From NCBI GenBank assembly GCA_902604305.1, contig CACKXS010000003.1, positions 36,714-100,713 of the forward strand: a DNA stretch of 64,000 nt, written 5' to 3'. How positions within the stretch are numbered: position 1 is the stretch's first letter; each line of letters starts with the position of its first letter. The notes below the pieces were generated by a model. That model saw only the letters and a program-made list of their open reading frames with translations, was not told the DNA's origin and made no database searches. A program made the position numbers and the translations under genes. The DNA is from an uncultured Pelagibacteraceae bacterium (GTDB lineage Bacteria; Pseudomonadota; Alphaproteobacteria; Pelagibacterales; Pelagibacteraceae). Positions 3,267-32,789 of the stretch are shown here, piece by piece.

Positions 3267-6200
3267 TTATTGATTTACTTGACTTTCTTCAGCTTCAATT
3301 TTTTCTTGCTCTGAAAGAAATTTCTTATCATCTTCTTGGGCTTTTTTGTTCCAGATGTGTTTAACTGATCCAGTACCAGCAGGAACCAGCCTACCGACAA
3401 TTACATTTTCTTTTAAACCAGCCAATTTATCAATTTTACCTTTAATTGCTGCATCTGTTAAAACTCTTGTTGTTTCTTGGAAAGAAGCAGCAGAAATAAA
3501 TGATTCTGTCTGCAGCGAAGCTTTTGTTATCCCCATCAAAACTCTCTCTCCTTTAGCTGGTTTTTTTCCCTCATTCTTTAATTTTTCATTCATTTCTTCG
3601 AATTTAATTTTATCAATAACTTCTCCTGGTAATACCGAAGAATCTCCACTTTCTTTAACTTCAATTTTTTTCAACATTTGTCTTAAAATTGTCTCTATGT
3701 GTTTATCATTAATTATTACACCTTGAAGTCTATATACTTCTTGTACCTGGTTTACAAAATAATCTGTTAATTCTTCTATTCCTAGTATTCTTAAAATATC
3801 ATGAGGTAACGGTTGCCCATCTAATAAATATTCCCCTTTTTTTATTTTTTCTCCTTGGTTAAAATTAATATGCTTTCCCTTTGGAATTAAATAGTTAGAT
3901 GTATCTCCATTTTCTGAGACTATAGACACTCTTTGTTTTCCTCTTACTTCTTTACCAAAATTTACTTTTCCATCATTTTCAGCAATGATAGCGCTATCTT
4001 TCGCTTTTCTCGCTTCAAATAGTTCAGCAACTCTTGGTAGTCCTCCTGTTATGTCTTTTGTTTTAGATGTTTCTTTTGGTAATCTTGCAATAACATCTCC
4101 TGCCGATATTTTTTGACCATCTTGTACTGATAAAATTGAATCTGGAACCAAATAATATCTAGCCTCGTTTTCATCAGCTTTTTTAATTACATTTCCTTTT
4201 TCATCTCTTAATGTAATTCTAGGTTTTAGATCAGTATTTTTTGATTGTGTCTTCCAGTCAACTACGGCTTTTGTAGATATTCCTGTAGTGTCATCTACTG
4301 TTTCAGCTAGTGATACTCCATCAATTAAATCTACATAATTTGCTAAACCATCTTTTTCTGCAATCACTGGTGTAGTATAAGGATCCCATTCACAAATTTT
4401 TGCACCCTTTTTAACTTTATCATCGTTTTGAAAAAATAGTTTCGATCCATAAGGAACTTTGTATGATGCAACTTGTAAACCATTCTCATCTTCTATTGAT
4501 AATTCAGTATTTCTTCCCATTACAACCATGTTTTTCTTTGAATCTTCAAGTAAATTTGTATTAATAACTTTTAGTATTCCGTCGGTTTTTGTAACAATTT
4601 GAGACTCTTGTTTTATAGATGCAGTACCACCAACGTGGAAAGTTCTCATGGTTAATTGAGTACCTGGTTCTCCAATAGATTGAGCAGAAATCATTCCAAT
4701 AGCTTCACCAACATGGACCATTTTTCCTCTAGAAAGATCTCTACCATAACTCATAGCGCAAACACCTTCTTTTGACCCACATGTTATTACAGAATATACT
4801 TTAATAAATTTAACACCTGCAGCATCAATTTTTTCACATCCAGCCTCATCAATCATGCTAGATTTTTTTATAATAACTTCACCAGTGATAGGATTTTTTA
4901 CATCTGCTGCAACAACTCTTCCTAAAGCTCTTTCTGAAAGACTAACAATAACATTTCCTCCCTCAATTATTTCAGATAGAGTAATGCTTCCTGCAGCTTT
5001 TCCACAATCACACTCTTTTTTAGTTATTGTTAAATCTTGAGCAACGTCACAAAGTCTTCTAGTTAAATATCCTGAGTTTGCAGTTTTTAAAGCAGTATCT
5101 GCTAATCCTTTTCTGGCTCCATGAGTTGAGTTAAAATATTCTAAGGCTGTTAAACCTTCTTTAAAATTTGACGTTATAGGTGATTCAATAATTTCTCCTG
5201 AAGGTTTAGCTATTAACCCTCTCATACCCGCAAGCTGTTTCATTTGTGCTGCAGATCCTCTAGCACCACTATCTGCCATCATAAATACAGAGTTTATTTT
5301 TAATCCTTTATCAGTAACTTCAGTTGCGGAAATTCTTTTCATCATTTCAGCCGCTACTCTATCTGTACATTTTGACCACGCATCGACAACTTTGTTGTAT
5401 TTTTCTCCTCTAGTTATAAGTCCTTCCGCATACTGATTTTCATAATCTGAAATAAGTTTCTTTGTCTCTTCAATTAATTGTTGTTTATTTTCAGGAATTA
5501 TTAAATCATCTTTTCCAAAAGAAATTCCAGCTTTAAATGCATGTTTAAAACCTAAATCTTTAAGCTTATCACAGAATATAACAGTAGATTTTTGACCACA
5601 AAATCTAAATACATGATCAATTATTTCTGAAACTACTTTTTTTGGTAATAATCTATCTATTAAAGAAAATTTATTATTAATATTTTTTGGTAAAAGATTT
5701 GCTAATAAAAATCTTCCAGCAGTACTTATATGTTTTTCATATTTTTCTTTACCGTTTTCATCGACAGTAACAAATCTTGAAACAATTCTTGAATGAACTT
5801 TTATTTGACCAGTTTCTAAAGCATGTTCAATTTCTGAATTATTCACAAAATATCCTTCTACTTTCTCAGTTTGATATGGTGATTGAGACAAATAATAAAT
5901 TCCAAGTATCATATCTTGACTTGGCACAATTATAGGTTTTCCATTTGATGGGCTTAATATATTATTGGTCGACATCATTAAAACTCTTGCCTCCAGTTGC
6001 GCTTCTAAACTTAAAGGTATATGAACTGCCATTTGATCACCATCAAAGTCAGCATTAAAAGCTGCGCAGGTTAATGGGTGTAATTCGATAGCATCACCTT
6101 CAATTAGTTTTGGTTCAAATGCTTGAACACCTAACCTATGAAGAGTTGGTGCTCTGTTAAGTATTACCGGGTGTTCTCTAACTATAATTTCTAGGGCATC

Positions 6201-7441: not shown

Positions 7442-10400
7442 TTAATTTAATTCCACATTTAATGCTAAGGATTTGATTTCTTTAACTAGTACGTTAAAGG
7501 ATTCTGGTATTCCAGATTCGAAATTTTCTTCTCCTTTAACAATAGTTTCATAAACTTTTACTCTACCCGCCACATCATCAGATTTTACTGTTAGGATTTC
7601 TTGGAGTGTATACGAGGCTCCATATGCTTCTAATGCCCATACTTCCATTTCTCCAAATCTTTGCCCTCCAAGTTGAGCTTTTCCACCTAGTGGCTGTTGT
7701 GTAACTAAACTATAAGGACCAGTCGATCTAGCATGAATTTTGTCTTCAACTAAATGATGGAGTTTGAGCATATAAATTGTTCCAACTGTAACTGATCTAT
7801 CAAATCTTTCTCCGGTTCTTCCATCCCATAAATATGTTTGACCTGAGCTTGGTAAGTTGGCTAATTCTAGCATTTTTGTAACGTCGTTTTCTTTTGCTCC
7901 ATCGAATACAGGTGTTGCTATTGGAATTCCGTTTTGAACATTTTCACATAGATCTTTAAATTCCGAATTTGTCAAATTTTCTATCGAATTTTCATAAACT
8001 TCTTTTCCATAAACAGAAGTTAAAAAATCAGAAAATTTTTTATTTTTTTCAATTTTTTTCTGATTATCATTAATTAATTTCTTTAATGTTTCACCTAGTT
8101 CTGTACAGGACCAACCCAAGTGAGTTTCCAAAATTTGGCCAACATTCATACGACTAGGAACTCCTAAAGGATTTAAGACTATGTCAACTGCTTTTCCATT
8201 TTCTTGATATGGCATGTCTTCTACAGGAACAATTTTACTAACTACTCCCTTGTTTCCATGTCTTCCAGACATTTTATCTCCAGGTCTCAATCTTCTTTTG
8301 ATGGCAACAAACACTTTAACCATTTTCATTACACTTGGCAGCAAATCGTCACCTTGTTTTATTTTTAATACCTTATCTTCAAATCTATCCTGTATATCTT
8401 TTTTTGCTATATTGTATTGGTTTTTTAACTGAGATAAATCATCCAACTTTTTTTCATCTGACAAAGATAATTTAAAGATGTCTTTTGTGTTAAGGACCTT
8501 TATATTTTCTTCATTTATTTCAACACCTTGTTCTAATTCCTTTATTTTTTTTGACAACTTTGCTCCAGATATTATTGACAAAGCTCTTTGTTTGATACTT
8601 CTTTCTAAAATTTCTTCTTCAACTATTTTATCTTGTTGAACAGAGTCTATTTCTGCTCTTTCAATTGTAATTGACCTTTCATCTTTTTCTATACCGTGAC
8701 GATTAAAAACTCTTACATCAACCACAGTACCTCCGCTGCCACTTGGCATTTTTAATGAAGTATCTGTAACATCAATGGCTTTTTCTCCAAAAATTGATCT
8801 TAAAAGTTTTTCCTCTGGTCCTGAAGCTGAGTCTCCTTTGGGTGTAACTTTCCCAACTAGTATATCTCCTGGTTTTACTTCTGCTCCTATATAAACTACG
8901 CCAGACTCATCTAAATTTTTTAATGATTCTTCGTTAACATTAGGAATGTCTCTGGTAATATCCTCTTCCCCAAGTTTTGTATCTCTAGCCATTACTTCAT
9001 ATTCTTCTATATGAATTGATGTAAAAACATCATCGGTTACGCATCTTTCTGAAATTAGTATTGAATCTTCAAAATTGTATCCCTGCCATGGCATAAATGC
9101 TACTGTCACATTTTTCCCAAGAGCTAATTCACCAATTTTTGTAGATGGACCATCGGCAATAATGTCACCTGATTTAACTTTATCACCAACTCTTACTAAA
9201 GGTTTTTGGTTTATACATGTATTTTGATTTGATCTTTTAAATTTTTGTAAATTGTAAATATCTACACCAGATTTAGTAAAATCTTTTTCATTAGTTGCTT
9301 TAATTACAATTCTTTTACCGTCAATTTTATCAACTATACCATCTCTTTTTGCAACAATTGTAACTCCAGAATCTAGGGCTACATCACTTTCAATACCTGT
9401 ACCAACTAGTGGTGCCTCAGGTTTTAATAATGGAACTGCCTGTCTCATCATATTTGATCCCATTAAGGCTCTATTAGCATCATCATTTTCAAGAAAAGGT
9501 ATTAATGATGCAGCTACTGAAACAAGTTGTTTTGGTGACACATCTATATAATCAATATTTTCAGGTTTAGATAAAATAAAATTTAAATTTTGTCTGCAAG
9601 AAACCAATTGTTCTTTAAATTTAGAATTTTTATCAATTATTGAATTTGCTTGAGCAATTGTAAATTTTGTTTCTTCCATTGCTGATAAATATTCAATTTT
9701 TTCTTGAACAATTCCATTTTTAACTTTCTTATAAGGGCTTTCAATAAACCCATACTTATTAATTTTAGAATAAGTAGATAAACTATTTATTAATCCAATA
9801 TTTGGTCCTTCAGGAGTTTCTATAGGGCAAATCCTTCCGTAATGGGTTGGATGAACATCTCTAACTTCAAATCCTGCTCTTTCTCTTGTTAGACCGCCTG
9901 GTCCTAAAGCTGAGACTCTTCTTTTATGAGTTATTTCAGATAATGGGTTTGTTTGATCCATAAATTGTGACAATTGTGAAGTTGCAAAAAAATCTTTTAA
10001 TGAGATTGTTAATGGTTTAGCATTAATTAAGTCTTGGGGCATAGCTGACTCTATGTCTAAGGTAGTCATTTTTTCTTTGATAGCTCTTTCCATTCTGTAA
10101 ACACCAATTCTAGCCTGATTTTCTACTAGTTCTCCTACAGATCTAACTCTTCTATTTCCCAGATGGTCTATATCATCAACTTCATCCTTTCCATCTCTAA
10201 GATCGAGCATTTTTTTAACTATAGCAATAATGTCATCATTTCTTAAAATTGTAATTTTATCTGAACACATAAGATTTAATCTTGAGTTCATTTTAACTCT
10301 TCCTACGTCTGATAAGTCATAACGATCAGAGCTAAAAAAAAGATTATTAAAAATTTGTGAAGCTATCTCTATTGTTGGAGGCTCTCCTGGCCGCAACATC

Positions 10401-17623: not shown

Positions 17624-17709
17624 TGGTGCCCTCGGCCAGACTCGAACTGGCACTCCCAAAAGGGCAAGGATTTTAAGTCCTTTGTGTCTACCAATTTCAC
17701 CACGAGGGC
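17624..17709 (-). tRNA. tRNA-Leu (anticodon TAA), 3' CCA encoded
   Basis: GCCCTCGTGGTGAAATTGGTAGACACAAAGGACTTAAAATCCTTGCCCTTTTGGGAGTGCCAGTTCGAGTCTGGCCGAGGGCACCA. Confidence 0.97.
17671..17705. repeat. Left copy of the att-like direct repeat, inside intact tRNA-Leu
   Basis: ttttaagtcctttgtgtctaccaatttcaccacga, identical to 22138-22172. Confidence 0.95.
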
Positions 17710-17780
17710 ATTTGTCAATTTCATAAGTATTTATGCTAACATTTATAATTTAACAAGATCATTAATCAAATTTTTTTTTA

Positions 17781-17816
17781 GTTTATCTCCCTATGCTCTG
17801 GTCTTGCTCTTGTTAT
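17781..17816. repeat. Left copy of inner imperfect direct repeat
   Basis: gtttatctccctatgctctggtcttgctcttgttat; core atctcYcYatgctctKgtcttgctcttgtt is shared with 21985-22013. Confidence 0.8.
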
Positions 17817-17844
17817 CCTATAAAATCCCTCAAAATGAAACTAT

Positions 17845-18285
17845 CTAAATATTAATCTTATACTCAATTAATACTAGCGTTCTCCATCCATTCTTTTCTT
17901 TAAGAACTTTTTTATGAACTATTTTATATCCAGCAATACTTACATCCTCTAATTTAGAGTCAGCTGTTAAATCATAAGTCTTAGTTATGCCTTTACTATT
18001 TTCCTTATGAGTTATGATCTCATTAGATACAATCGAGTGTTGAGTAATATCTGCAATTTTTATTTTTGCTGATAAAATTGCTTTATTTTCAGAAATATTA
18101 AGATCCTTAGACCAGCCATTTCCACATACTTTAATTACTTTTTCAGTACTTTTATTTTTATCACAATAAACATTTACAAATTTTTGTAAATCATCAGGTG
18201 ATGTAATTGATTTTTTATTTTTAACATAAGAATTAGTGCAATTGCTTAATAATAATCCAATTATAATTATTGATAATATTTTCAT
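17845..18285 (-). CDS. Putative lipoprotein of unknown function
   Basis: 146 aa; N-terminal lipobox-like MKILSIIIIGLLLSNCTNSY. Confidence 0.7.
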   Translation of the reverse strand: MKILSIIIIGLLLSNCTNSYVKNKKSITSPDDLQKFVNVYCDKNKSTEKVIKVCGNGWSKDLNISENKAILSAKIKIADITQHSIVSNEIITHKENSKGITKTYDLTADSKLEDVSIAGYKIVHKKVLKEKNGWRTLVLIEYKINI

Positions 18286-18293
18286 TTTTTCTC

Positions 18294-18512
18294 CTATAAG
18301 TTTTCAAGTAATGTAAAAAATACCATTGTAAAAGCTCGATGGTATTTTTCATCAGTGATAAATTGGACAAAAATGTTGTCCTTTTCTTCACAAGTATATG
18401 TTTCTTTTTTATTCACTAATTTATTATTTTCGACGTCCGCATATGCATAATACTTGCACTTAGCATTTGCAGGACTGATTAACAAAAAAAGAACTAATAA
18501 GATTCTAATCAT
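18294..18512 (-). CDS. Small putative exported protein
   Basis: 72 aa; signal-peptide-like MIRILLVLFLLISPANAKC. Confidence 0.6.
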   Translation of the reverse strand: MIRILLVLFLLISPANAKCKYYAYADVENNKLVNKKETYTCEEKDNIFVQFITDEKYHRAFTMVFFTLLENL

Positions 18513-18744
18513 AAATCTCCTTTTCTTTTTGGCTTATTTCAAATCTAACCTGATTTAAAATAGCATCCATTAGAACAAAAAATGCCTTATGTACTTCTTG
18601 TTCAAATACTTTTTTTTGGCATACTGAGTTACACTCTGTCAGAACATGTATTAACGTTTTTTGATAATACTCATTAGATTTTGCAAATGAATGAGTTGTG
18701 AAAGTTATCAAAAACAAAAAAAATAGAGTTTTTATAAGCTTCAT
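18505..18744 (-). CDS. Small putative exported protein
   Basis: 79 aa; signal-peptide-like MKLIKTLFFLFLITFTTHSFAKS; overlaps the next gene by 8 nt. Confidence 0.6.
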   Translation of the reverse strand: MKLIKTLFFLFLITFTTHSFAKSNEYYQKTLIHVLTECNSVCQKKVFEQEVHKAFFVLMDAILNQVRFEISQKEKEIYD

Positions 18745-18977
18745 TTTTCTCCTTTCTTTTTATTAAGACCAACTAAGGTCATTATTTCTTTGTCATTTAT
18801 TAATTTGCTATCCAAGATTAGATATACGTGAATATTTTTTTTAAGAGCTACTTTTGCTACTTCTTTATTTTTTAAATATTTTTTATCCGCATGTCCTATC
18901 GCAAATGGTTCATTTTCAATAGCAGCTAAAACGATTTCTTTATTTTTTTTAAAATTGTTTGACAATGATTTGATCAC
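18741..18977 (-). CDS. DUF4116-like small protein; true start uncertain
   Basis: 78 aa with NNFKKNKEIVLAAIENEPFAIGHADKKYLKNKEVAKVALKKN, resembling the DUF4116 repeat; frame stays open upstream of the annotated Met. Confidence 0.55.
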   Translation of the reverse strand: MIKSLSNNFKKNKEIVLAAIENEPFAIGHADKKYLKNKEVAKVALKKNIHVYLILDSKLINDKEIMTLVGLNKKKGEK

Positions 18978-19246
18978 CCAACCATTTTTTTTAACTAATT
19001 TTAAAGCTTCTGATTTAGTAATAATCTTTATCCTCCATAAATGACTTCAGCAATTCTTTAATAATTTTAGAATTGTGTTCGTCTAGTTCTTTGTCTGATA
19101 GTTTTCTTAACTCATTCTCTGAGAGATTTTGTGGAGCTTGTTTCTTTTCTTTATCAGTAATAACGGCTTGTTTTATACACTTTTTAAGAAAAATTTTTCA
19201 GTGAAATAAGATTGATTATTTTTCACTAAGTAAATAAACTCAAAAT

Positions 19247-19648
19247 ATGAAAAGTAAGATTTTACAAAAAAAAGAAGATAATAAAGCTTCAGATTTTGAA
19301 CGAGATATTTCACTTAAAGATGCAAAATCATTAAAAGTGGAACTATCTTCTTTTGTGTATAATGATTTCAATCCTGACTCAGATGAATATGAAGAGCAGG
19401 AAATATCAGTTAAAAAATCTGATGTAAAATTTAAGATTAAGGATAATAAAGGCAAATTAAAGATTGTCTTAGTGTCAGCAAATATTGATTTTGATATAGA
19501 TGATGATGGGCAAAGCGAAAGATTTATGGATAAAGACTGGGAAACTGAAACAATTTTTCCTACATTAAAATTGACTGACAAAAGTAAAAAAGAAGAGTAT
19601 GTGGCTTATGATGGCGGTCATCTTTTTACTTTAGAATTAGTTTATTAA
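19247..19648 (+). CDS. Hypothetical acidic protein
   Basis: 133 aa ORF, first of three co-directional island genes. Confidence 0.65.
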   Translation: MKSKILQKKEDNKASDFERDISLKDAKSLKVELSSFVYNDFNPDSDEYEEQEISVKKSDVKFKIKDNKGKLKIVLVSANIDFDIDDDGQSERFMDKDWETETIFPTLKLTDKSKKEEYVAYDGGHLFTLELVY

Positions 19649-19677
19649 ATAGTAAATTAATTTTTCACACTTTTGTA

Positions 19678-20223
19678 ATGAATAGTTTTTTTATAAATCC
19701 TAAAGATGCTCAATTTTCAATAAAAAAATCTAAGGAAAGATTAAAAGAATATCTTTTCATTTTTAATCTATTAATTGATAAAGAAAAAAAATCCAAACTA
19801 TCAAAAGAAGAAAGCGCAAAACTAATTAGTCTTGTTGAGTCAGCTGCGATTGAGTGCACTATGCAATTTTTTTGGAAATGTGGATATTGGATTTTAAGGG
19901 AGCAACAAACTAAAGGTCCTATGGATTTATATGTTTATAAAATAGTTAACGGTGAAAAAATTGAATATGCTGTTGATGTTAAGGGTATACGTCCTAATGC
20001 CAAAAAGAAACCAGCCCATAAACCGACTTTACCTAAAGGGTACGAGAAAAAATCACATCATATTAGAGATCAAATTTTAAAAAGAATTGTTGCGATTGTT
20101 TATTTAAAAGATGAAAAAACAAGAAAAGAAATAAGCTTTACTGAAGGTTGGCACACCTCTTTTAAAGGCGGACAAGCTGGACTTACTGGAAAAAGAGTTG
20201 AAATAAATAAAAAAAAAATTTAA
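19678..20223 (+). CDS. Putative PD-(D/E)XK-like nuclease-fold protein
   Basis: 181 aa; GPMDLYVYKIVNGEKIEYAVDVKG resembles the D...(D/E)xK active-site layout; by-eye motif only. Confidence 0.5.
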   Translation: MNSFFINPKDAQFSIKKSKERLKEYLFIFNLLIDKEKKSKLSKEESAKLISLVESAAIECTMQFFWKCGYWILREQQTKGPMDLYVYKIVNGEKIEYAVDVKGIRPNAKKKPAHKPTLPKGYEKKSHHIRDQILKRIVAIVYLKDEKTRKEISFTEGWHTSFKGGQAGLTGKRVEINKKKI

Positions 20224-20275
20224 GAAAATTTAATAAAAATCTTTAATTCTAATATGGTTCGTTATAATATTAACT

Positions 20276-20671
20276 ATGCCAAATTTATATTTAAAAATTG
20301 ATATCGATACAGAACTGTTTACCGAAAGCGGTAAAAAGATGAAAGAAACTATTGAAAGAATTAATAATATAGTAATTCAATATAAAGGTTTTTCTGACGT
20401 AGAATTTAATTATGATATTTATGTTGATAAAGACGATTTTATAAAAGATTATGAGCTTACAATTAGTGAGAAATCACCTTATAAAATTAGGATTAAAGGA
20501 TTAGCAAAAGCTAAAGTTAAACCAGAATTAATTCAAGAGTTTAATATGGATAAAAAGAAAAATTTTGTTCTGTCCCAAGTTCATGTAAGTCCTTTTGAAA
20601 TATTACAAACAAAAAAAAGTAAAAAACCAAAAAAAATGGAATGTTTAGCTAGTATTAAGAAACCAAAGTAA
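20276..20671 (+). CDS. Hypothetical protein
   Basis: 131 aa ORF downstream of the putative nuclease. Confidence 0.6.
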   Translation: MPNLYLKIDIDTELFTESGKKMKETIERINNIVIQYKGFSDVEFNYDIYVDKDDFIKDYELTISEKSPYKIRIKGLAKAKVKPELIQEFNMDKKKNFVLSQVHVSPFEILQTKKSKKPKKMECLASIKKPK

Positions 20672-20709
20672 TTGGTCTAATATTTCTTGTAAAATTTCAT
20701 CCAAAATTA

Positions 20710-21165
20710 TTATTTTATAGAAAGCTTAAGCTTAGCTATTTTTTCTTCAACCTCATTTATCGCCTTGTAAATTTGATCTTTTTCAGTTTTGCTAATTTCT
20801 TTTCCCATTGGACTATCAGGGCTCATTGCATCATGAGTTGTATCCATAAGATTGCCTACCCTACCACCTATTTTAATTAATGTGCTCGCAACATTTTCAT
20901 ATACATTTACTTTATTAAATTCATCCTCAAGTGTAAGAGAGAAATTATCAATAAACGGTGTACCTAGAGATTTTCTTTGCATTAAAATATCAAGTTTTAT
21001 TGCATCAATATAATGTAAATTATGATCTTTATCATCTGGGTCACTACATTTTCTAAAGTGAGAAATTGACTTATTGGTAATATTTTTTACTTCATCTTCT
21101 TCAAGTTTACTAATTACTTGCGAAAGAACATGCTCAACAGTTAAAGGTACACGAAGTTTTGTCAT
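20710..21165 (-). CDS. Hypothetical protein, possible phage-regulator-like HTH
   Basis: 151 aa; NITNKSISHFRKCSDPDDKDHNLHYIDAIKLDILM looks like a CII/CP76-type HTH segment; weak. Confidence 0.5.
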   Translation of the reverse strand: MTKLRVPLTVEHVLSQVISKLEEDEVKNITNKSISHFRKCSDPDDKDHNLHYIDAIKLDILMQRKSLGTPFIDNFSLTLEDEFNKVNVYENVASTLIKIGGRVGNLMDTTHDAMSPDSPMGKEISKTEKDQIYKAINEVEEKIAKLKLSIK

Positions 21166-21168
21166 TTT

Positions 21169-21969
21169 CTATATAAATTCTTTTCCTGCATCTAAGTACA
21201 TACATTTTTCACAACTCTTATTAATTTCAGGAACATTGTCTAGTTCTAAAGTTTTTTTCATATCATTGATATTATCTTCTACCCAAGATGTATCTGTAAC
21301 GTACGGAACTAAAGTTATGGTAAAATTTAATTTTCCCTCAAAATTGTCAAAACTTTTTTCACCATTACATACATAAAAATACGAAGTATCTGAAACTTTA
21401 AAACCCATTTTTCTAAGAATATGGACATATATATCCATCTGTATTTTATAACCTTGGTGAAAAATACTTTCTAAATATGCTTTAGTTTCAACTTTGGTAT
21501 TACTTGATTGAGCCTTGTAATCTACTACAACTAATTCCTCTTTATCTAAATCATACCAAATATCATCTACTCCACCATGAATTTCTAAATTAGTGTCTTT
21601 ATCTAAATATGAAATTCCACCAGATAAAGAGTTTCTCCAATTATCTAATTCTTCATGCTGAAAAGGAATAAAATTAAGATTATGTTTCTTAAATATTGGG
21701 TGTGGTTTTTTTTGGCTTCTCAGTAAATCAAATTCTTTTTTAAGTAGCTCATCAACTGCAACATTTAATGACCAGCCAGGCATTCCTGGTTCTTTCAATC
21801 CCTTAACCCTATCAAGATAAAAACATCTTTTACAATCTAAAAAACTACTAAATTTTGATCGGCTAATTTTAAAAGGCTCATTGGTTCCTTTTTTATAAAC
21901 ACTTCCTTTTCGATTTCTTAAAGGATTTACTTCAACTAAATTACCTTTGCTATCTCTTTTTAAACCCAT
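21169..21969 (-). CDS. Putative PD-(D/E)XK (RecB/Cas4-like) nuclease with paired cysteines
   Basis: 266 aa; HGGVDDIWYD...LVVVDYKAQS...GYKIQMDIYVHILRKMG follows the D / DxK / QxxxY pattern; CKRC near N-terminus and CEKC near C-terminus. Confidence 0.7.
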   Translation of the reverse strand: MGLKRDSKGNLVEVNPLRNRKGSVYKKGTNEPFKISRSKFSSFLDCKRCFYLDRVKGLKEPGMPGWSLNVAVDELLKKEFDLLRSQKKPHPIFKKHNLNFIPFQHEELDNWRNSLSGGISYLDKDTNLEIHGGVDDIWYDLDKEELVVVDYKAQSSNTKVETKAYLESIFHQGYKIQMDIYVHILRKMGFKVSDTSYFYVCNGEKSFDNFEGKLNFTITLVPYVTDTSWVEDNINDMKKTLELDNVPEINKSCEKCMYLDAGKEFI

Positions 21970-21985
21970 AAGTTTATCTTACTAT

Positions 21986-22014
21986 CTCTCCATGCTCTTG
22001 TCTTGCTCTTGTTT
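21986..22014. repeat. Right copy of inner imperfect direct repeat
   Basis: ctctccatgctcttgtcttgctcttgttt; contains tgctcttg-tct-tgctcttg. Confidence 0.8.
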
Positions 22015-22137
22015 AAGAATTTAATTAAGTATTATTTTCAAATGTTATTATACAGCTAAATTAAAGGTATGTGATTTTATAGTATATTTAGACTACCTTG
22101 GATTACTATGGACTGACTTTAACTTCTATCCCTCGGC

Positions 22138-22172
22138 TTTTAAGTCCTTTGTGTCTACCAATTTCACCACGA
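22138..22172. repeat. Right copy of the att-like repeat (tRNA-Leu 5'-half fragment)
   Basis: 35/35 identity with 17671-17705, running from anticodon loop to acceptor-stem position 5. Confidence 0.95.
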
Positions 22173-26843: not shown

Positions 26844-29800
26844 TTATTCGTTTGCACAAGACCCTTTGCAAGCTCTACGTTGTCCACCTATAATTCTCCA
26901 TTCAACATTATCACCAGGCTTAACTTCTGACCTTGACCAATAATAACCTTTTTCATCTTTAAATAAACTATCTTTCCTATCTTTTCTTGCAGATGTATTT
27001 CTGTATTCATCAACTACTTGTTTAGCAATTGAACTAATATCTCCACCTGTATCTTTTTGTATTTGAGATATTAATGATTGAACATTATCAAGTGCATAGT
27101 CAATCCCGGCATCATCCACAGCAGATTTAGCTGCTGAAGCTACTTCAGCAGAAGAAGCTGCTGCTGCTTCTGCTGCTGCTTGCGCAGCTTCTTTTGCAAT
27201 TTGTGCAGTTTGTTTTGCTGCCTCTTCAGCTGCTTCTGCAGCTGCTGCTGCTGCTTCATTGGCCACTGCTCTTGCTGCATCGGCGGCTTGTTTTGCTGCT
27301 TCTGCAGCTGCAATATTGGCCTCTGTTGCATTTTCTGTTGCTGCTGCTGCAGCAGCTATTGAAGCGCTTTCTAAGTTATTAGCTAAATCACCTGCAACAC
27401 CTGATGCGGTATCTAAAGATTTTTCAGTTGCGTTTGCTAACGCTAATGTATTAGAAGTAATAATTCCTTTTTCTAAGTCAGCAGATGCTAAATATTCTGC
27501 TTTATTTGCATCAGCAGCTTGATTTGCTGCTTTTGCAGTTCTTTCTAATAAATGTTTTTGTGTATTTCCAGATTCGTCCTCTATTTGTGCAATTTGTGTT
27601 TCAAATTTTTTTATATCTTCACTATGAGCTTTCGTTGTTGCTTTAGAGAATGATGTTTTTGCTTGAGTTGATATAGATGCATCTGAAATTATTGCACCAT
27701 CAACAACTCTAATTACAGGGTTCTTTTTTCCTTGCCCTTTAAAAGTCGCTTGACCATTTACATGGCCCGTATACCCTGTGGTTAAACCTTCAGGTATATT
27801 TAATGCTGTAGTCATATAAGCAGTTGCTTGCTCACTAGTAATATCAAACTTACAACCACCGCTGTTACAACGTCCAGCAACATTTCCTGTTAAAGGATCA
27901 GCTAAATTTTCTAATACATACATTCCTCCAAAACTGGCTGCTTTTTTACCAAAACTGCCAGTGGGTCCACAAGTTGATCCATCGCAAACTAGACTGCCTG
28001 AATGTCCAGTTACTGGATTTGCCATTTGTTCGCCAGTTTTAGCATCCACCAAAACCCAAGCCCCCAATGATCCAGATCCATATTGTGAATCATATGTTTG
28101 TTGGCCTCCAACCATTTTTCCTGTTTCTTGTAATTGTCTAGCTGCTTCCTCCGAAAAGTTAATTTTTAAATCACCTTCTTCATCAATTGTTTTAAATGAA
28201 TAAAGTAGCTCTGGTTCAACTGCGCCTGCTGTATAAACAGACCCATTAACAGTCACAGTTCCTTTTGGTGCTTCAAATTTTCCAGATTGGTCAGTTAATA
28301 AATTAGTATCGATTAGTCTATAAGTATTAATATCTCCGTTAATTGAAATAATTGATTTATTTTCAATTAATCCAATTTTTTCAACTAATTTAGCTTCTAA
28401 ATCTTTTTCAATAATTTCTAATTTTTTTGCTTCGGAATAAGCTAAATCAGCCTTTAAGTTTGTAAAATCCTTTAAATCTTGGTTTAATTTTACTATTTGT
28501 TGTTCTATTTTTGGAGAATTTAACTCAATATTTTTTATCTCATTATTTAATTCTGAAACTGATGCTGTTAAATCTTTAGCTTGATTTTGAAATTTATTTA
28601 TTTCTTCATTAATTTCTAAGTTTTTTTGATCAAATTCTGTCTTTAAAGTTTTTATATCTAATGTTTGATTATTTTCAGACTGAACTTGCTTTTCAATTTC
28701 TTCTAATTCCTTATTAAAGTTTATTGTTAACTCATTTTGTTGTGTTTCTAAGTTTTTAATAGAGTTATTAATAGGATTTAACTGATTTTCTAAATTTGAT
28801 ATAGATAATTTTTTCTGAACTACTGTACTTTGATTTAAGTTAAGTTGGCTAGTTAGTTCGTTTAACTGAGAATTTATACCCTCTTCATTTATTTTAAGAT
28901 TAGCTATTTCTTTTTCTAGTTTTATTACCTCCTTATCAATGTTTTCAATCTTAGTTTTATTTTCATTAGTTAGTGCAGAGATTTGTGCCTCTAGGCCAAC
29001 ATATTGATCTAACTCCTTATTCAATATAGATAATTTAGCTGATAAATCAGGTGTTTTAGTTTCTAAATTTTTAATTTCATTATTTAAATTAGAAATATTT
29101 GTTTTCAAAGTTTCAGAATTTGTTTTTAAAATATTTATTTTGTTATCAACTTCACTCAATTCTTCATTTAATTTATCTTTTATTTTATTAGCTTCGGATG
29201 TTATTTTTTCAGTACTAGTAGCATTATCTGCTATTATTGATAATTGTTTTTCTACTTCTATATTTAAGGTTTGTCTTTTTTGCTCTAGTTGAATTATTTC
29301 ATTTGCATATGGGTCTAATTCGGTTTGTAAACTTTGTATTGATGTTTTCTTTTCATTAATAATGTTTTGCTTTGAAAATAAATCAGAATTTAATTTTGAA
29401 ATTTCAGATTTTACTTTTTCTTCATTTAATTTTATAGAATTTAATTCTGCTTCAAGTTTTGATATATTTGTATTTAGACTATTTAATTGAGCTTTATTAT
29501 TATTTATTTGTGATTTTAAAGTATCTGTTTGTTTATTTAAAGCATTCAACTTAGGATTATTATTACCTAAGATTGATGAAAGTTCTTTTTCTATAGCTTT
29601 CCTTTCTGATGTAGATAACTGTATTCTATCTTCTTCAGCAACATATACATAATCCATGTTCCCTTCCATTTTTGATTTAACAATCATAGCTAACTTTACA
29701 TTTGTCATTTCCCAATATGGCCCTGTCATATATTGGGATGTTGGAGTTGCTCCAATTTGTTTGATTTTTTCTACAGCTGTTTTATATGCTTCATAAGTAT

Positions 29801-32789
29801 TAGGGTCCTGGTCGAGTGCTGCTCTTAAGGCAGCAGACTGATCACCAACATCTATTGGTCTACCACCAAGCCAAATATCCCTGTTTCCTATTCCTGTCAT
29901 TGCTTCATAAGCTCTATCTAATTGCTTTTGACTAAATGAAGGTATTTTAGTTATAATTTCTCCTACTTTATCAACGTAATTATAATCTGGGTTTTTGGAA
30001 ATTTCATCACTGGTTATTTTTTGTATATTTGATTTCGCTTCATTTACCATTGTAATAACATTAGCTCTTGCTTGTTTTGATGCATTCGCTTCTTTCATGA
30101 TCTTCTGTGAAGATAGGCTTATAACTTCTTGTTGTGTATTTATCCAATTATTGGTTTCTAAAGGAGGCGTGGCGTTATCAATTTGTATTTTATATATTTC
30201 ATTATTAATATTTAGTGCATCAGTCATTTTATTTTGAGCTTTAGATCTTATGTCGCCAAGCTCTTGATCGAATTTGCCAATGCTTCTCACCCAATCACTA
30301 TAATTAGGATTTCCTCTATCTCTATATAAAGCTGCGTAACCACCAATTGAATTTATATATGACATTTTTTCTAATGACTTCTGAGTATATGTTTGATTGA
30401 AATTATTCACCTGAGCATATAATCCGGTTAACTCATCTTGTAACGGTTTGATTGCTTTATTAATCTCTTGATTTTTTAATTCTTGAAAAGCTTTAATATC
30501 CGTTAACTGTTTTTGTTTTTCTTCAAGAGTTGATGTTAAAGATTTTAAATCTAAATCATTATTAACTATATTTTCAAATTCTTTATTTACCATTTCCGCT
30601 TCTAAAGAGCCTTCTTGAAGCGCAGCGTATTGAAGAGTTGTTATATTTAGTTTGGATAATTCCTGATAAGGTTTAGTTTTTTCTTCTATTATAGCATCTA
30701 CCTGTCGCTTAATTTTATCTCCATTTCGGAAAACTTCTACGGCTTGTTGTAGCGCTTTTTCTTCTGCCACCATTACGTTTAATTCTGCCTCTGAAGGAAT
30801 ATCTACTACCCAATTTGGATTTTTACTTAATTTTTCTGTAATATTTTTGTAAACTTTTTTTGTCGTTTCCCAATCATCATTATTTATTGCATTAATACCT
30901 TCTTGAATTTCAGCTTGTGATAATCCAGCAAATGTTCCGTACTTTCTTATTTCAAATGCATTAGCTTTTCTTGTGTCTCCATCTAATAAAATGCCAACTT
31001 CTTCCATTGCAAAGTCAATTTCTTTTTCTGACATTTTATCAAGTAATGGATAAAAATATTCAACAGCCTCAACTTCTTTATCAATCGATTTTGCAAATTG
31101 ACTTTCGATAAAATCTCTTTCAAGCGAAACTCTTTGTAATTGCTCCTCTAATGATTGGTTTGTTTTTGATAAATTAGTTGGAAGATTCTTCAGTCTATAT
31201 AACTCAAGTTCTTTTGATTCTAAAACTTCTTTAGATTTAGATAATTTATTATTTAGAGAAATTAAATTGCTTGATAATTCGTTTACAATATTTGTTTCAT
31301 TAGATATTTCAGTATTTAATTGAGATAGGTTTTGTTGAATTACTCCCTTTTTATTTTCTATATCTTTAATTTGATTGGTTACAGAGTTAATTTCGTTGTT
31401 TAAATTATTAGCTAAATCTTTAGATTGTATTATTTCATTACTATTTACACTATTATTTAAATTTTCTAATTCACTGTTATACTTCGATAATAGTTCAGCT
31501 TTTTTGGTGTTTAGTAAACCAATCTCATCATCTAAAGGACTTATTTCACTATTTAAATCGGCTATTTGAGACCTTTTTTGTGATAATAAAGAATTTTGAC
31601 TACTCAGTTCACTTTCTAAATCTGTTAACTGTTTTTGCAAATTTTTAGACTGCACAACTTTTTGTTCAAGCTCCAGTATACTTGTATTATTTGCATTACT
31701 GGATGTTTGATTTTTTAATTTATCTATTTCAGTTTTCTTTGTGGCTATCAAATTTTTCAGCTCAAATTTATCTCTATTAAGTTTATTTATTTTTGCTGTA
31801 ATAGAATTTGATAAGGATAAATCTGAATTTATACTTAAATTCATTTGAGAAATCTCTGATCTTAAATTAGAAGATTTTTGATTAACAGTTTCAATTTCTT
31901 TTGATATTCCTTGAAGATCTTTTTCAAATTTTTCCGTAAGTTTATTTACTTTGACATCATTAGTATTTAATCCTGCAACTCTTAATTTTGATAGTTGAGC
32001 ATTATATTCATTTGTCAATTTAGATTTTTCATCTTCCAATCTATTTATTTCTAAGGAAATTGGTTCTAGTTGATTATTTAAAGAAACAAGAGAGGCTTGT
32101 TTGCCTTGTATATTCAAATTATTTTTTTTTAGATTTTGTTCTAATTCTGTTAATTTATTTTCTATTTCTTTATCAACTATAACTTCATTGCCTGAGCTCG
32201 TAATCATTGTTCCTTTATATGAGTCAGCCAATTCTTTTTTTGATAAGTTTTTTTTTTGTTTTAATTTATTAATATCTATATTTAATTCTAACGTATCGAC
32301 TCCTATAGAATTTAAATTATCAATGATTTCAAAAGTTTTTAATCCTTTTTGGTCTAAAGAAACTAAATCATCGATTACTTTTTTTAACTTATTTTTTTTA
32401 TTTTGGTTCATTGATTTTGTTATTTTTGTAACTTCTTTAAGATCATCAGCATTTAATTTTGACATATCGAGATTGGACATGTCTGAAGTTGCTTCTTTAG
32501 GAATCAAGTTTGAAATTTCACCTAGAGTTCGATCAATAAATTCTAGACCTTTTATTGCATCATCAGAACTATTTTTAAGTGTGTCAGTTACAAAAAGTGT
32601 TGCTTTGTTTATTTCTTTGATAGCATCATCGATTATTTTAGCTTCGTTGCTTACTGGATCTTTTAATTCATTAAATTTTTCTTGAACTTCTTGTAACGAC
32701 TTTGTTAACATCTCAATTTCATCGTCAGCAAAAACTATATTGGGTAAAATTATTAATGATATAGCTAAAATTTTTATAAATTTTCTCAT
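26844..32789 (-). CDS. Giant exported coiled-coil protein of unknown function
   Basis: 1981 aa; signal peptide MRKFIKILAISLIILPNIVFA, long heptad-rich segments, Gly/Cys-containing region near aa 1600-1700, Ala-rich coiled coil near the C-terminus. Confidence 0.85.
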   Translation of the reverse strand: MRKFIKILAISLIILPNIVFADDEIEMLTKSLQEVQEKFNELKDPVSNEAKIIDDAIKEINKATLFVTDTLKNSSDDAIKGLEFIDRTLGEISNLIPKEATSDMSNLDMSKLNADDLKEVTKITKSMNQNKKNKLKKVIDDLVSLDQKGLKTFEIIDNLNSIGVDTLELNIDINKLKQKKNLSKKELADSYKGTMITSSGNEVIVDKEIENKLTELEQNLKKNNLNIQGKQASLVSLNNQLEPISLEINRLEDEKSKLTNEYNAQLSKLRVAGLNTNDVKVNKLTEKFEKDLQGISKEIETVNQKSSNLRSEISQMNLSINSDLSLSNSITAKINKLNRDKFELKNLIATKKTEIDKLKNQTSSNANNTSILELEQKVVQSKNLQKQLTDLESELSSQNSLLSQKRSQIADLNSEISPLDDEIGLLNTKKAELLSKYNSELENLNNSVNSNEIIQSKDLANNLNNEINSVTNQIKDIENKKGVIQQNLSQLNTEISNETNIVNELSSNLISLNNKLSKSKEVLESKELELYRLKNLPTNLSKTNQSLEEQLQRVSLERDFIESQFAKSIDKEVEAVEYFYPLLDKMSEKEIDFAMEEVGILLDGDTRKANAFEIRKYGTFAGLSQAEIQEGINAINNDDWETTKKVYKNITEKLSKNPNWVVDIPSEAELNVMVAEEKALQQAVEVFRNGDKIKRQVDAIIEEKTKPYQELSKLNITTLQYAALQEGSLEAEMVNKEFENIVNNDLDLKSLTSTLEEKQKQLTDIKAFQELKNQEINKAIKPLQDELTGLYAQVNNFNQTYTQKSLEKMSYINSIGGYAALYRDRGNPNYSDWVRSIGKFDQELGDIRSKAQNKMTDALNINNEIYKIQIDNATPPLETNNWINTQQEVISLSSQKIMKEANASKQARANVITMVNEAKSNIQKITSDEISKNPDYNYVDKVGEIITKIPSFSQKQLDRAYEAMTGIGNRDIWLGGRPIDVGDQSAALRAALDQDPNTYEAYKTAVEKIKQIGATPTSQYMTGPYWEMTNVKLAMIVKSKMEGNMDYVYVAEEDRIQLSTSERKAIEKELSSILGNNNPKLNALNKQTDTLKSQINNNKAQLNSLNTNISKLEAELNSIKLNEEKVKSEISKLNSDLFSKQNIINEKKTSIQSLQTELDPYANEIIQLEQKRQTLNIEVEKQLSIIADNATSTEKITSEANKIKDKLNEELSEVDNKINILKTNSETLKTNISNLNNEIKNLETKTPDLSAKLSILNKELDQYVGLEAQISALTNENKTKIENIDKEVIKLEKEIANLKINEEGINSQLNELTSQLNLNQSTVVQKKLSISNLENQLNPINNSIKNLETQQNELTINFNKELEEIEKQVQSENNQTLDIKTLKTEFDQKNLEINEEINKFQNQAKDLTASVSELNNEIKNIELNSPKIEQQIVKLNQDLKDFTNLKADLAYSEAKKLEIIEKDLEAKLVEKIGLIENKSIISINGDINTYRLIDTNLLTDQSGKFEAPKGTVTVNGSVYTAGAVEPELLYSFKTIDEEGDLKINFSEEAARQLQETGKMVGGQQTYDSQYGSGSLGAWVLVDAKTGEQMANPVTGHSGSLVCDGSTCGPTGSFGKKAASFGGMYVLENLADPLTGNVAGRCNSGGCKFDITSEQATAYMTTALNIPEGLTTGYTGHVNGQATFKGQGKKNPVIRVVDGAIISDASISTQAKTSFSKATTKAHSEDIKKFETQIAQIEDESGNTQKHLLERTAKAANQAADANKAEYLASADLEKGIITSNTLALANATEKSLDTASGVAGDLANNLESASIAAAAAATENATEANIAAAEAAKQAADAARAVANEAAAAAAEAAEEAAKQTAQIAKEAAQAAAEAAAASSAEVASAAKSAVDDAGIDYALDNVQSLISQIQKDTGGDISSIAKQVVDEYRNTSARKDRKDSLFKDEKGYYWSRSEVKPGDNVEWRIIGGQRRACKGSCANE

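Follow-up and report, generated by a model that had tools for sequence, protein, structure and literature searches.

Cis-mobilisable elements (CIMEs) have been described as decayed relatives of integrative and conjugative elements (ICEs) or integrative and mobilisable elements (IMEs) that depend on an accreted partner for movement in cis (PMC5704250). In the present study, a 64,000-nucleotide stretch of a SAR11 assembly (hereafter the window), whose relatives carry the label Pelagibacteraceae, was analysed for a 4.43-kb island that lies at a tRNA-Leu(UAA) gene between two attachment (att) repeats. This island is probably a non-autonomous integrative cassette that is moved in trans by the integrases of satellites. 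Like a CIME, it is att-bounded and integrase-less; attL and attR are kept, genes for integration and transfer are absent, and members of its family are accreted in tandem. It differs from a CIME in that the integrase-less form makes up about 95% of the family, both matched arms are kept, the cargo is unrelated and the elements have spread between species. The attP of the family is shared with satellites and not with a known conjugative element, its relatives being satellite-like with no conjugation genes noticed. With respect to accretion in cis, an integrase-bearing array neighbour exists in genome G202; the island stands alone at its site here.

PICMI-like phage satellites carry an integrase, AlpA, a DUF5906 primase and Fis, and the excision of known satellites needs the satellite-encoded integrase (PMC10803314). 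The putative helper satellites described below resemble them in having an integrase, an AlpA-like helix-turn-helix (HTH) protein and a DUF5906 primase in about 8 kb, whereas none of the nine open reading frames (ORFs) of the island matches an integrase, AlpA, DUF5906 primase or Fis. MITEs and CALINs are also non-autonomous DNA (PMC11389934) and, like the island in our interpretation, depend on the enzyme of a relative; the SAR11 cassette differs in having a tyrosine-recombinase attP with element-specific arm sites instead of transposon ends or attC.

Additive flexible genomic islands with partial tRNA repeats have been reported from Actinomarinales (PMC7771536) and Methylophilaceae (PMC10872708), and the excerpts of those reports considered here resemble the present case in describing tRNA-sited cassettes with fragment repeats in streamlined aquatic bacteria. 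These excerpts deal with repeats and cassettes, whereas arms, iterons and candidate integrases were identified in the SAR11 family. Tycheposons and VEIMEs are marine mobile cargo elements, the former targeting tRNA genes, according to the citing passages of PMC10803314 and PMC11389934, and tycheposons are described with a tyrosine recombinase in the relevant passage of PMC10872708. The island has no element-encoded recombinase; it is set apart from these elements by description only, so an overlap with tycheposons or VEIMEs is possible. The apparently new features are a variable iteron pair that matches between the two ends, arms and cargo that are exchanged, and an attP shared with rare satellites.

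Results

The preliminary description of this DNA had reported an integrase-less island bounded by a 35-bp repeat of the 5' half of the tRNA-Leu(UAA) gene, and both statements were borne out. The two copies are exact and in the same orientation, span the tRNA from the acceptor stem to the anticodon loop, and can be extended to 37/38 identical positions. They are the only copies in the 860-kb assembly with up to three mismatches allowed, and a chance origin of a 35-mer repeat is negligible. Pfam gave no match to a tyrosine or serine recombinase in any ORF of the island, and the sole tyrosine recombinase detected in the assembly, which is 72% complete, is a 311-aa protein on a different contig. 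The key feature of the island, overlooked in the preliminary description, is a second, subterminal pair of direct repeats (17784-17814 and 21983-22013; 28/31 identical, chance expectation 0). The site features are as follows:

17624-17709, minus strand: tRNA-Leu(UAA) target gene (called by ARAGORN), whose apparently element-supplied 5' half holds the 35-bp repeat
17671-17705, minus strand: att repeat copy within the tRNA gene, with the 27-mer core at 17671-17697
17710-17783, minus strand: inner P arm, a promoter-like stretch upstream of the tRNA that is conserved among elements (CTTGTTMAATTATAAATRTTAGCATAAA..., consensus of 63 P arms), with a putative promoter function
17784-17814, minus strand: P-arm iteron pair ACMAGAGCA (17794-17802 and 17805-17813, 11-bp period), with the motif GGGAGATA at 17784-17791
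21983-22013, minus strand: P'-arm iteron pair ACAAGAGCA (21993-22001 and 22004-22012, 11-bp period), with the motif GGAGAGATA at 21983-21991
22091-22114, minus strand: three AGTC boxes at +43, +33 and +23 from the core, the one at +33 degenerate (AATC), from the sequence and the family consensus
22138-22172, minus strand: distal att repeat, with the 27-mer core at 22138-22164

The island is one member of a SAR11-wide element family. Among 250 same-genus genomes, exact copies of a 23-bp core numbered 0, 1, 2, 3 and 4 in 75, 111, 49, 14 and 1 genomes, respectively, these counts being lower bounds because the genomes are incomplete and the matching was exact. At least two copies, mostly in tandem, were present in 64 of the 250, and some other genomes had an empty site. 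In total, 66 elements of 0.27-15.5 kb were delimited. An integrase is absent in about 95% of them, and at this site integrase-less elements outnumber integrase-bearing ones by about 20:1. Most of their cargo is unique, with 111 singletons among 145 clusters, and the cargo includes restriction-modification systems, GmrSD, transporters and enzymes.

Most of the 66 elements look like an attP with arms. From the distal copy toward the tRNA, the order is core, P' arm, cargo, P arm and next core. The AGTC boxes at +23, +33 and +43 were found in 53, 50 and 48 of 63 elements, and in most elements pairs of 9-bp iterons with an 11-bp period lie at -114 to -117 and +122 to +128, followed by a GAGATA-like motif. 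The iteron pattern is close to ACtaGnaCa and falls into about 24 classes across the elements. The two ends of one element nevertheless agree, with a 9/9 iteron match in 38 of the 46 two-ended elements; the within-element match score for these 46 was 404, against at most 303 in permutations (0 of 10,000 reached the observed value). This test treats related elements (for example L160, L175 and L019 E1) as independent, and about 24 distinct iteron classes remain. The smallest case, L216, is a 267-bp element (3520-3813 in reverse-strand coordinates) with two cores, a single iteron pair common to both arms and no cargo. Two other elements, L197 and L168, have unlike iteron classes at their two ends and are probably fusions formed after loss of an internal core.

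Empty and occupied sites could be compared directly. The empty, one-copy sites L203 and L201 are 94% identical to the occupied site L023 up to and through the core and 90-91% identical beyond it, and the insertion in L023 consists of two elements (8.7 kb). Similarly, the left side of the empty site L207 aligns through the core at 88% with L181, into which a satellite is inserted. At the tRNA-Leu-nadK site, differing cargo is the rule. Direct tRNA-fragment att repeats, a one-copy empty site and alternative cargo, which characterise tyrosine-recombinase elements at tRNA genes, were therefore all found. The nadK-tRNA-Leu-gcvP setting first given for the island holds on the nadK side, where the neighbour is conserved; the left neighbour is variable, and gcvP occupies that position only in this genome among the arrays examined.

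Evidence for exchange between genomes came from the island itself. In the parts that both have, the island and a relative in L020 are 93-96% identical; on the nadK side, identity in the flank drops to 73-75%, which indicates recent movement across species. Descent in step with the core genes had been named beforehand as the contrary case, and the opposite was seen; this conflict in divergence, together with the empty sites and the alternative cargo, supports the earlier proposal of an integrated non-autonomous element at tRNA-Leu. Furthermore, three genomes share a 2,852-bp element at 96-97% identity; its array neighbours differ among them and the flanks are 75-89% identical, one comparison giving 97% for the element against 75% for the flank. 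The cargo of L019 E2 is 94-96% identical to that of the island, yet its iterons differ at both ends, and L268 carries the iteron class of the island with unrelated cargo. Arms and cargo are thus separable. In a circle, the arms and the core would form one segment of about 270 bp, which a single exchange could swap. L266 and L020 are apparently one record, as are L267 and L022, and each pair was counted once as evidence.

Integrase-encoding elements at this site are few: L181 E1 (7.8 kb), L192 E1 (8.8 kb) and a divergent 10.2-kb element in G202. Of the 39 array genomes, only G120 and G168 have PF00589 matches within the array, plus the divergent one in G202. The attP fingerprint of the family is present in satellites of 8-9 kb, which are circular in IMG/VR and integrated in G120 and G168. 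The IMG/VR contigs L100, L115 and L119 look circular, with terminal repeats of 99-123 bp, and encode the same integrase family as L181 and L192; such circular contigs are only consistent with packaging by a virulent helper phage. The satellite integrase is a tyrosine recombinase of about 545 aa (PF00589, E 3e-10; best Foldseek matches lambda Int and Xer). In its predicted structure only the catalytic domain is confident (mean pLDDT 58), and residues 70-125 form a three-strand-plus-helix segment resembling an arm-binding domain, the Foldseek matches to such domains being not significant (E 1.2). An AlpA-like HTH protein and an AEP/DUF5906 primase were found in the satellite group. The matches to PF00589 in L181 and PF19263 in L100 are above the cut-off, and L181, L192 and L100 have homologues of both; the AlpA and HTH_7 matches are below the cut-off only. 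No Fis match was found among the satellite proteins scanned, which were part of the total.

The satellites share with the cassettes the AGTC spacing (two or three boxes), GAGATA at -92 (a variant in L121) and the P iterons; the P' iterons of the satellites fall within the beginning of the integrase gene. Of five satellite iteron classes, three are identical to a class seen among the cassettes (ACTAGAAAC, ACCAGCACA and TCTAGGATC), which is suggestive of a pairing between helpers and cassettes and is retained here only as such. The IMG/VR matches to the iteron pattern of the window (L156-L159) look like unrelated chance matches and were set aside.

Further integrases and cassettes of related kinds were observed. 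G202 C16 (L166, L232) is a five-element array in which the tRNA-adjacent element encodes an integrase and has quite different arms (GTTCCACAC iterons, AGTC triplet absent). In L229 (G158), a divergent satellite-type integrase near tRNA-Ser(GCU) is broken by two TAG stops, and the IMG/VR contig L099 encodes a related integrase plus a PD-(D/E)XK homologue. A similar cassette with a different attP lies at another tRNA in L031 (4603-12045), where 214 bp separate a PD-(D/E)XK gene from a 51-bp repeat of the 3' part of tRNA-Gly(GCC), with a partial third copy. In L052 (about 8755-8785), a minus-strand core and an iteron-like P arm, with no tRNA called, stand beside the 3' end of the PD-(D/E)XK paralogue described below, possibly a secondary-site insertion.

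The cargo of the island consists of the following genes:

17845-18285, minus strand: 146-aa lipoprotein-like protein (lipobox read by eye; no Pfam family above cut-off)
18294-18512, minus strand: 72-aa small secreted-like protein
18505-18744, minus strand: 79-aa small secreted-like protein
18741-18977, minus strand: DUF4116 repeat protein (Pfam PF13475, E 3e-12)
19247-19648, plus strand: 133-aa uncharacterised protein with a relative in L028
19678-20223, plus strand: 181-aa uncharacterised protein, 96% identical in L020
20276-20671, plus strand: 131-aa uncharacterised protein
20710-21165, minus strand: 151-aa protein with weak similarity to CII/CP76 regulators (PF06892, E 0.0075; phrog_101, E 0.007; both weak)
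21169-21969, minus strand: 266-aa PD-(D/E)XK nuclease, RecB/Cas4-like (PF12705, E 1.8e-9, 38 bits, cut-off 22)

The 146-aa gene is one of three that adjoin the P end in relatives, and the 151-aa protein recurs on these elements, with 46% identity to a copy in the viral contig L121. The PD-(D/E)XK gene starts about 200 bp from the core, the place of the integrase gene in satellites. Its product was nevertheless rejected as a recombinase or iteron reader, since it is 99% identical in L019, where the iterons differ, is absent from most elements, and has a paralogue that is a chromosomal gene beside gltX in many relatives. This paralogue appears to follow gltX, read by eye, in many Pelagibacteraceae (L199; about 60 loci at 62-67% identity). 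Elsewhere in the window, past the gcv genes, an ORF of 1981 aa (26844-32789) is coiled-coil-like and has long repetitive stretches, which is unusual for a streamlined genome.

Discussion

The architecture of the attP, the matching of its ends, the empty and occupied sites, the exchange of cargo and arms, the transfer between species and the attP shared with satellites can be read directly from the sequences. The island is best interpreted as trans-mobilised because an element that lacks an integrase has both of its matched arms, spreads from species to species and is more numerous than its integrase-bearing relatives. In the proposed mechanism, the cassette carries a complete attP, consisting of a core from the 5' half of tRNA-Leu(UAA) and two arms each with a matched iteron pair, together with a cargo of a PD-(D/E)XK nuclease, DUF4116 and small secreted-like proteins and no recombinase. 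A rare satellite of the same attP design, with its integrase, AlpA-like HTH protein and DUF5906 primase, would supply the tyrosine recombinase in trans. Tyrosine recombinases such as lambda Int use a characteristic layout of arm-type sites, and the iterons match it in spacing and position; by this analogy, the satellite integrase may bind the iterons as arm-type sites and recombine the cores. The cassette would then be excised as a circle and inserted at the tRNA-Leu(UAA) attB, and exchange between cells may proceed by packaging or another route. Since the P arm carries the tRNA 5' half and a promoter-like stretch, insertion would replace the upstream part of the tRNA gene, the cassette supplying both the 5' half and the region before it. 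Repeated insertion would give tandem arrays.

Several observations weigh against this interpretation. Helpers are rare (6 of 399 genomes), and no integrase with the iteron class of the island, ACMAGAGCA, was found in IMG/VR or those 399 genomes. The sharing of iterons between helpers and cassettes would arise by chance with P = 0.02 under a column model and 0.15 under a Markov model. Cassettes and helpers differ in the inner P arm. No excised cassette circle was seen, the IMG/VR contigs with this core including no window-type cassette.

It is improbable that the island is a decayed, CIME-like element, now immobile, whose integrase was lost by deletion from an integrase-bearing ancestor. The lack of an integrase and the few elements with lost or mismatched ends (L197, L168 and L216) agree with decay, and a deletion ancestry is plausible because the P' iterons of the satellites lie inside the integrase gene start. 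However, both arms of the island are intact and matched, its transfer is recent (93-96% against 73-75% identity), and elements of this kind, with diverse cargo and no integrase, make up about 95% of the family. Of the two origins left open by the preliminary description, trans mobilisation fits better than decay, the arms being intact and matched and the attP design being shared with integrase-bearing satellites. SAR11 bacteria recombine frequently, and the arrays have arm segments of 40-140 bp in common and include hybrid ends (L197 and L168), so that homologous recombination, acting on flanks and common arms, might account for the exchange of arrays with no present site-specific recombination. 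This, too, has little probability, given that one and the same element recurs in differing arrays beside flanks that have diverged (L160, L175 and L019) and that a site-specific function is suggested by the end-specific match of the iterons and by the constant spacing of the AGTC boxes in non-coding DNA.

Movement in trans could also be attributed to the integrases of temperate T7-like pelagiphages (HTVC200P/HTVC119P type) that use the same tRNA-Leu, since pelagiphage and viral contigs bear the same tRNA-Leu core beside an integrase and, in cyanobacteria, tRNA-Leu is a known integration site of T7-like phages (PMC8776855). Nevertheless, the AGTC triplet, GAGATA at -92 and the iterons, which occur in the satellites, are all absent from the 13 pelagiphage-type attPs, and the layout differs, the integrase gene often ending about 45 bp upstream of the core. 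A pelagiphage helper was rejected on this differing attP layout and is considered very unlikely.

The preferred reading, trans mobilisation by satellite integrases, can be extended, tentatively, to hitch-hiking at three levels. Phages might mobilise the satellites, whose integrases might in turn mobilise a large pool of cargo cassettes without an integrase; the variable iteron pair might be an address that decides which integrase moves which cassette, and a cassette in circular form might change to another helper by exchanging its compact attP segment. This extension is possible but somewhat doubtful.

SAR11 bacteria are among the most abundant on Earth; their genomes are small and hold few prophages, and the exchange of their accessory genes has been poorly explained to date. 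If the present interpretation is true, a pool of integrase-less cassettes at one tRNA, with a recognition design as in rare satellites, would be a concrete and testable route of exchange, and would provide a mechanism for the tRNA-bounded cassettes known from other streamlined aquatic bacteria. Moreover, the matched, diversifying iterons could make the specificity between integrase and arm site readable from sequence. The cassette system suggests how the streamlined genomes of SAR11 swap genes.

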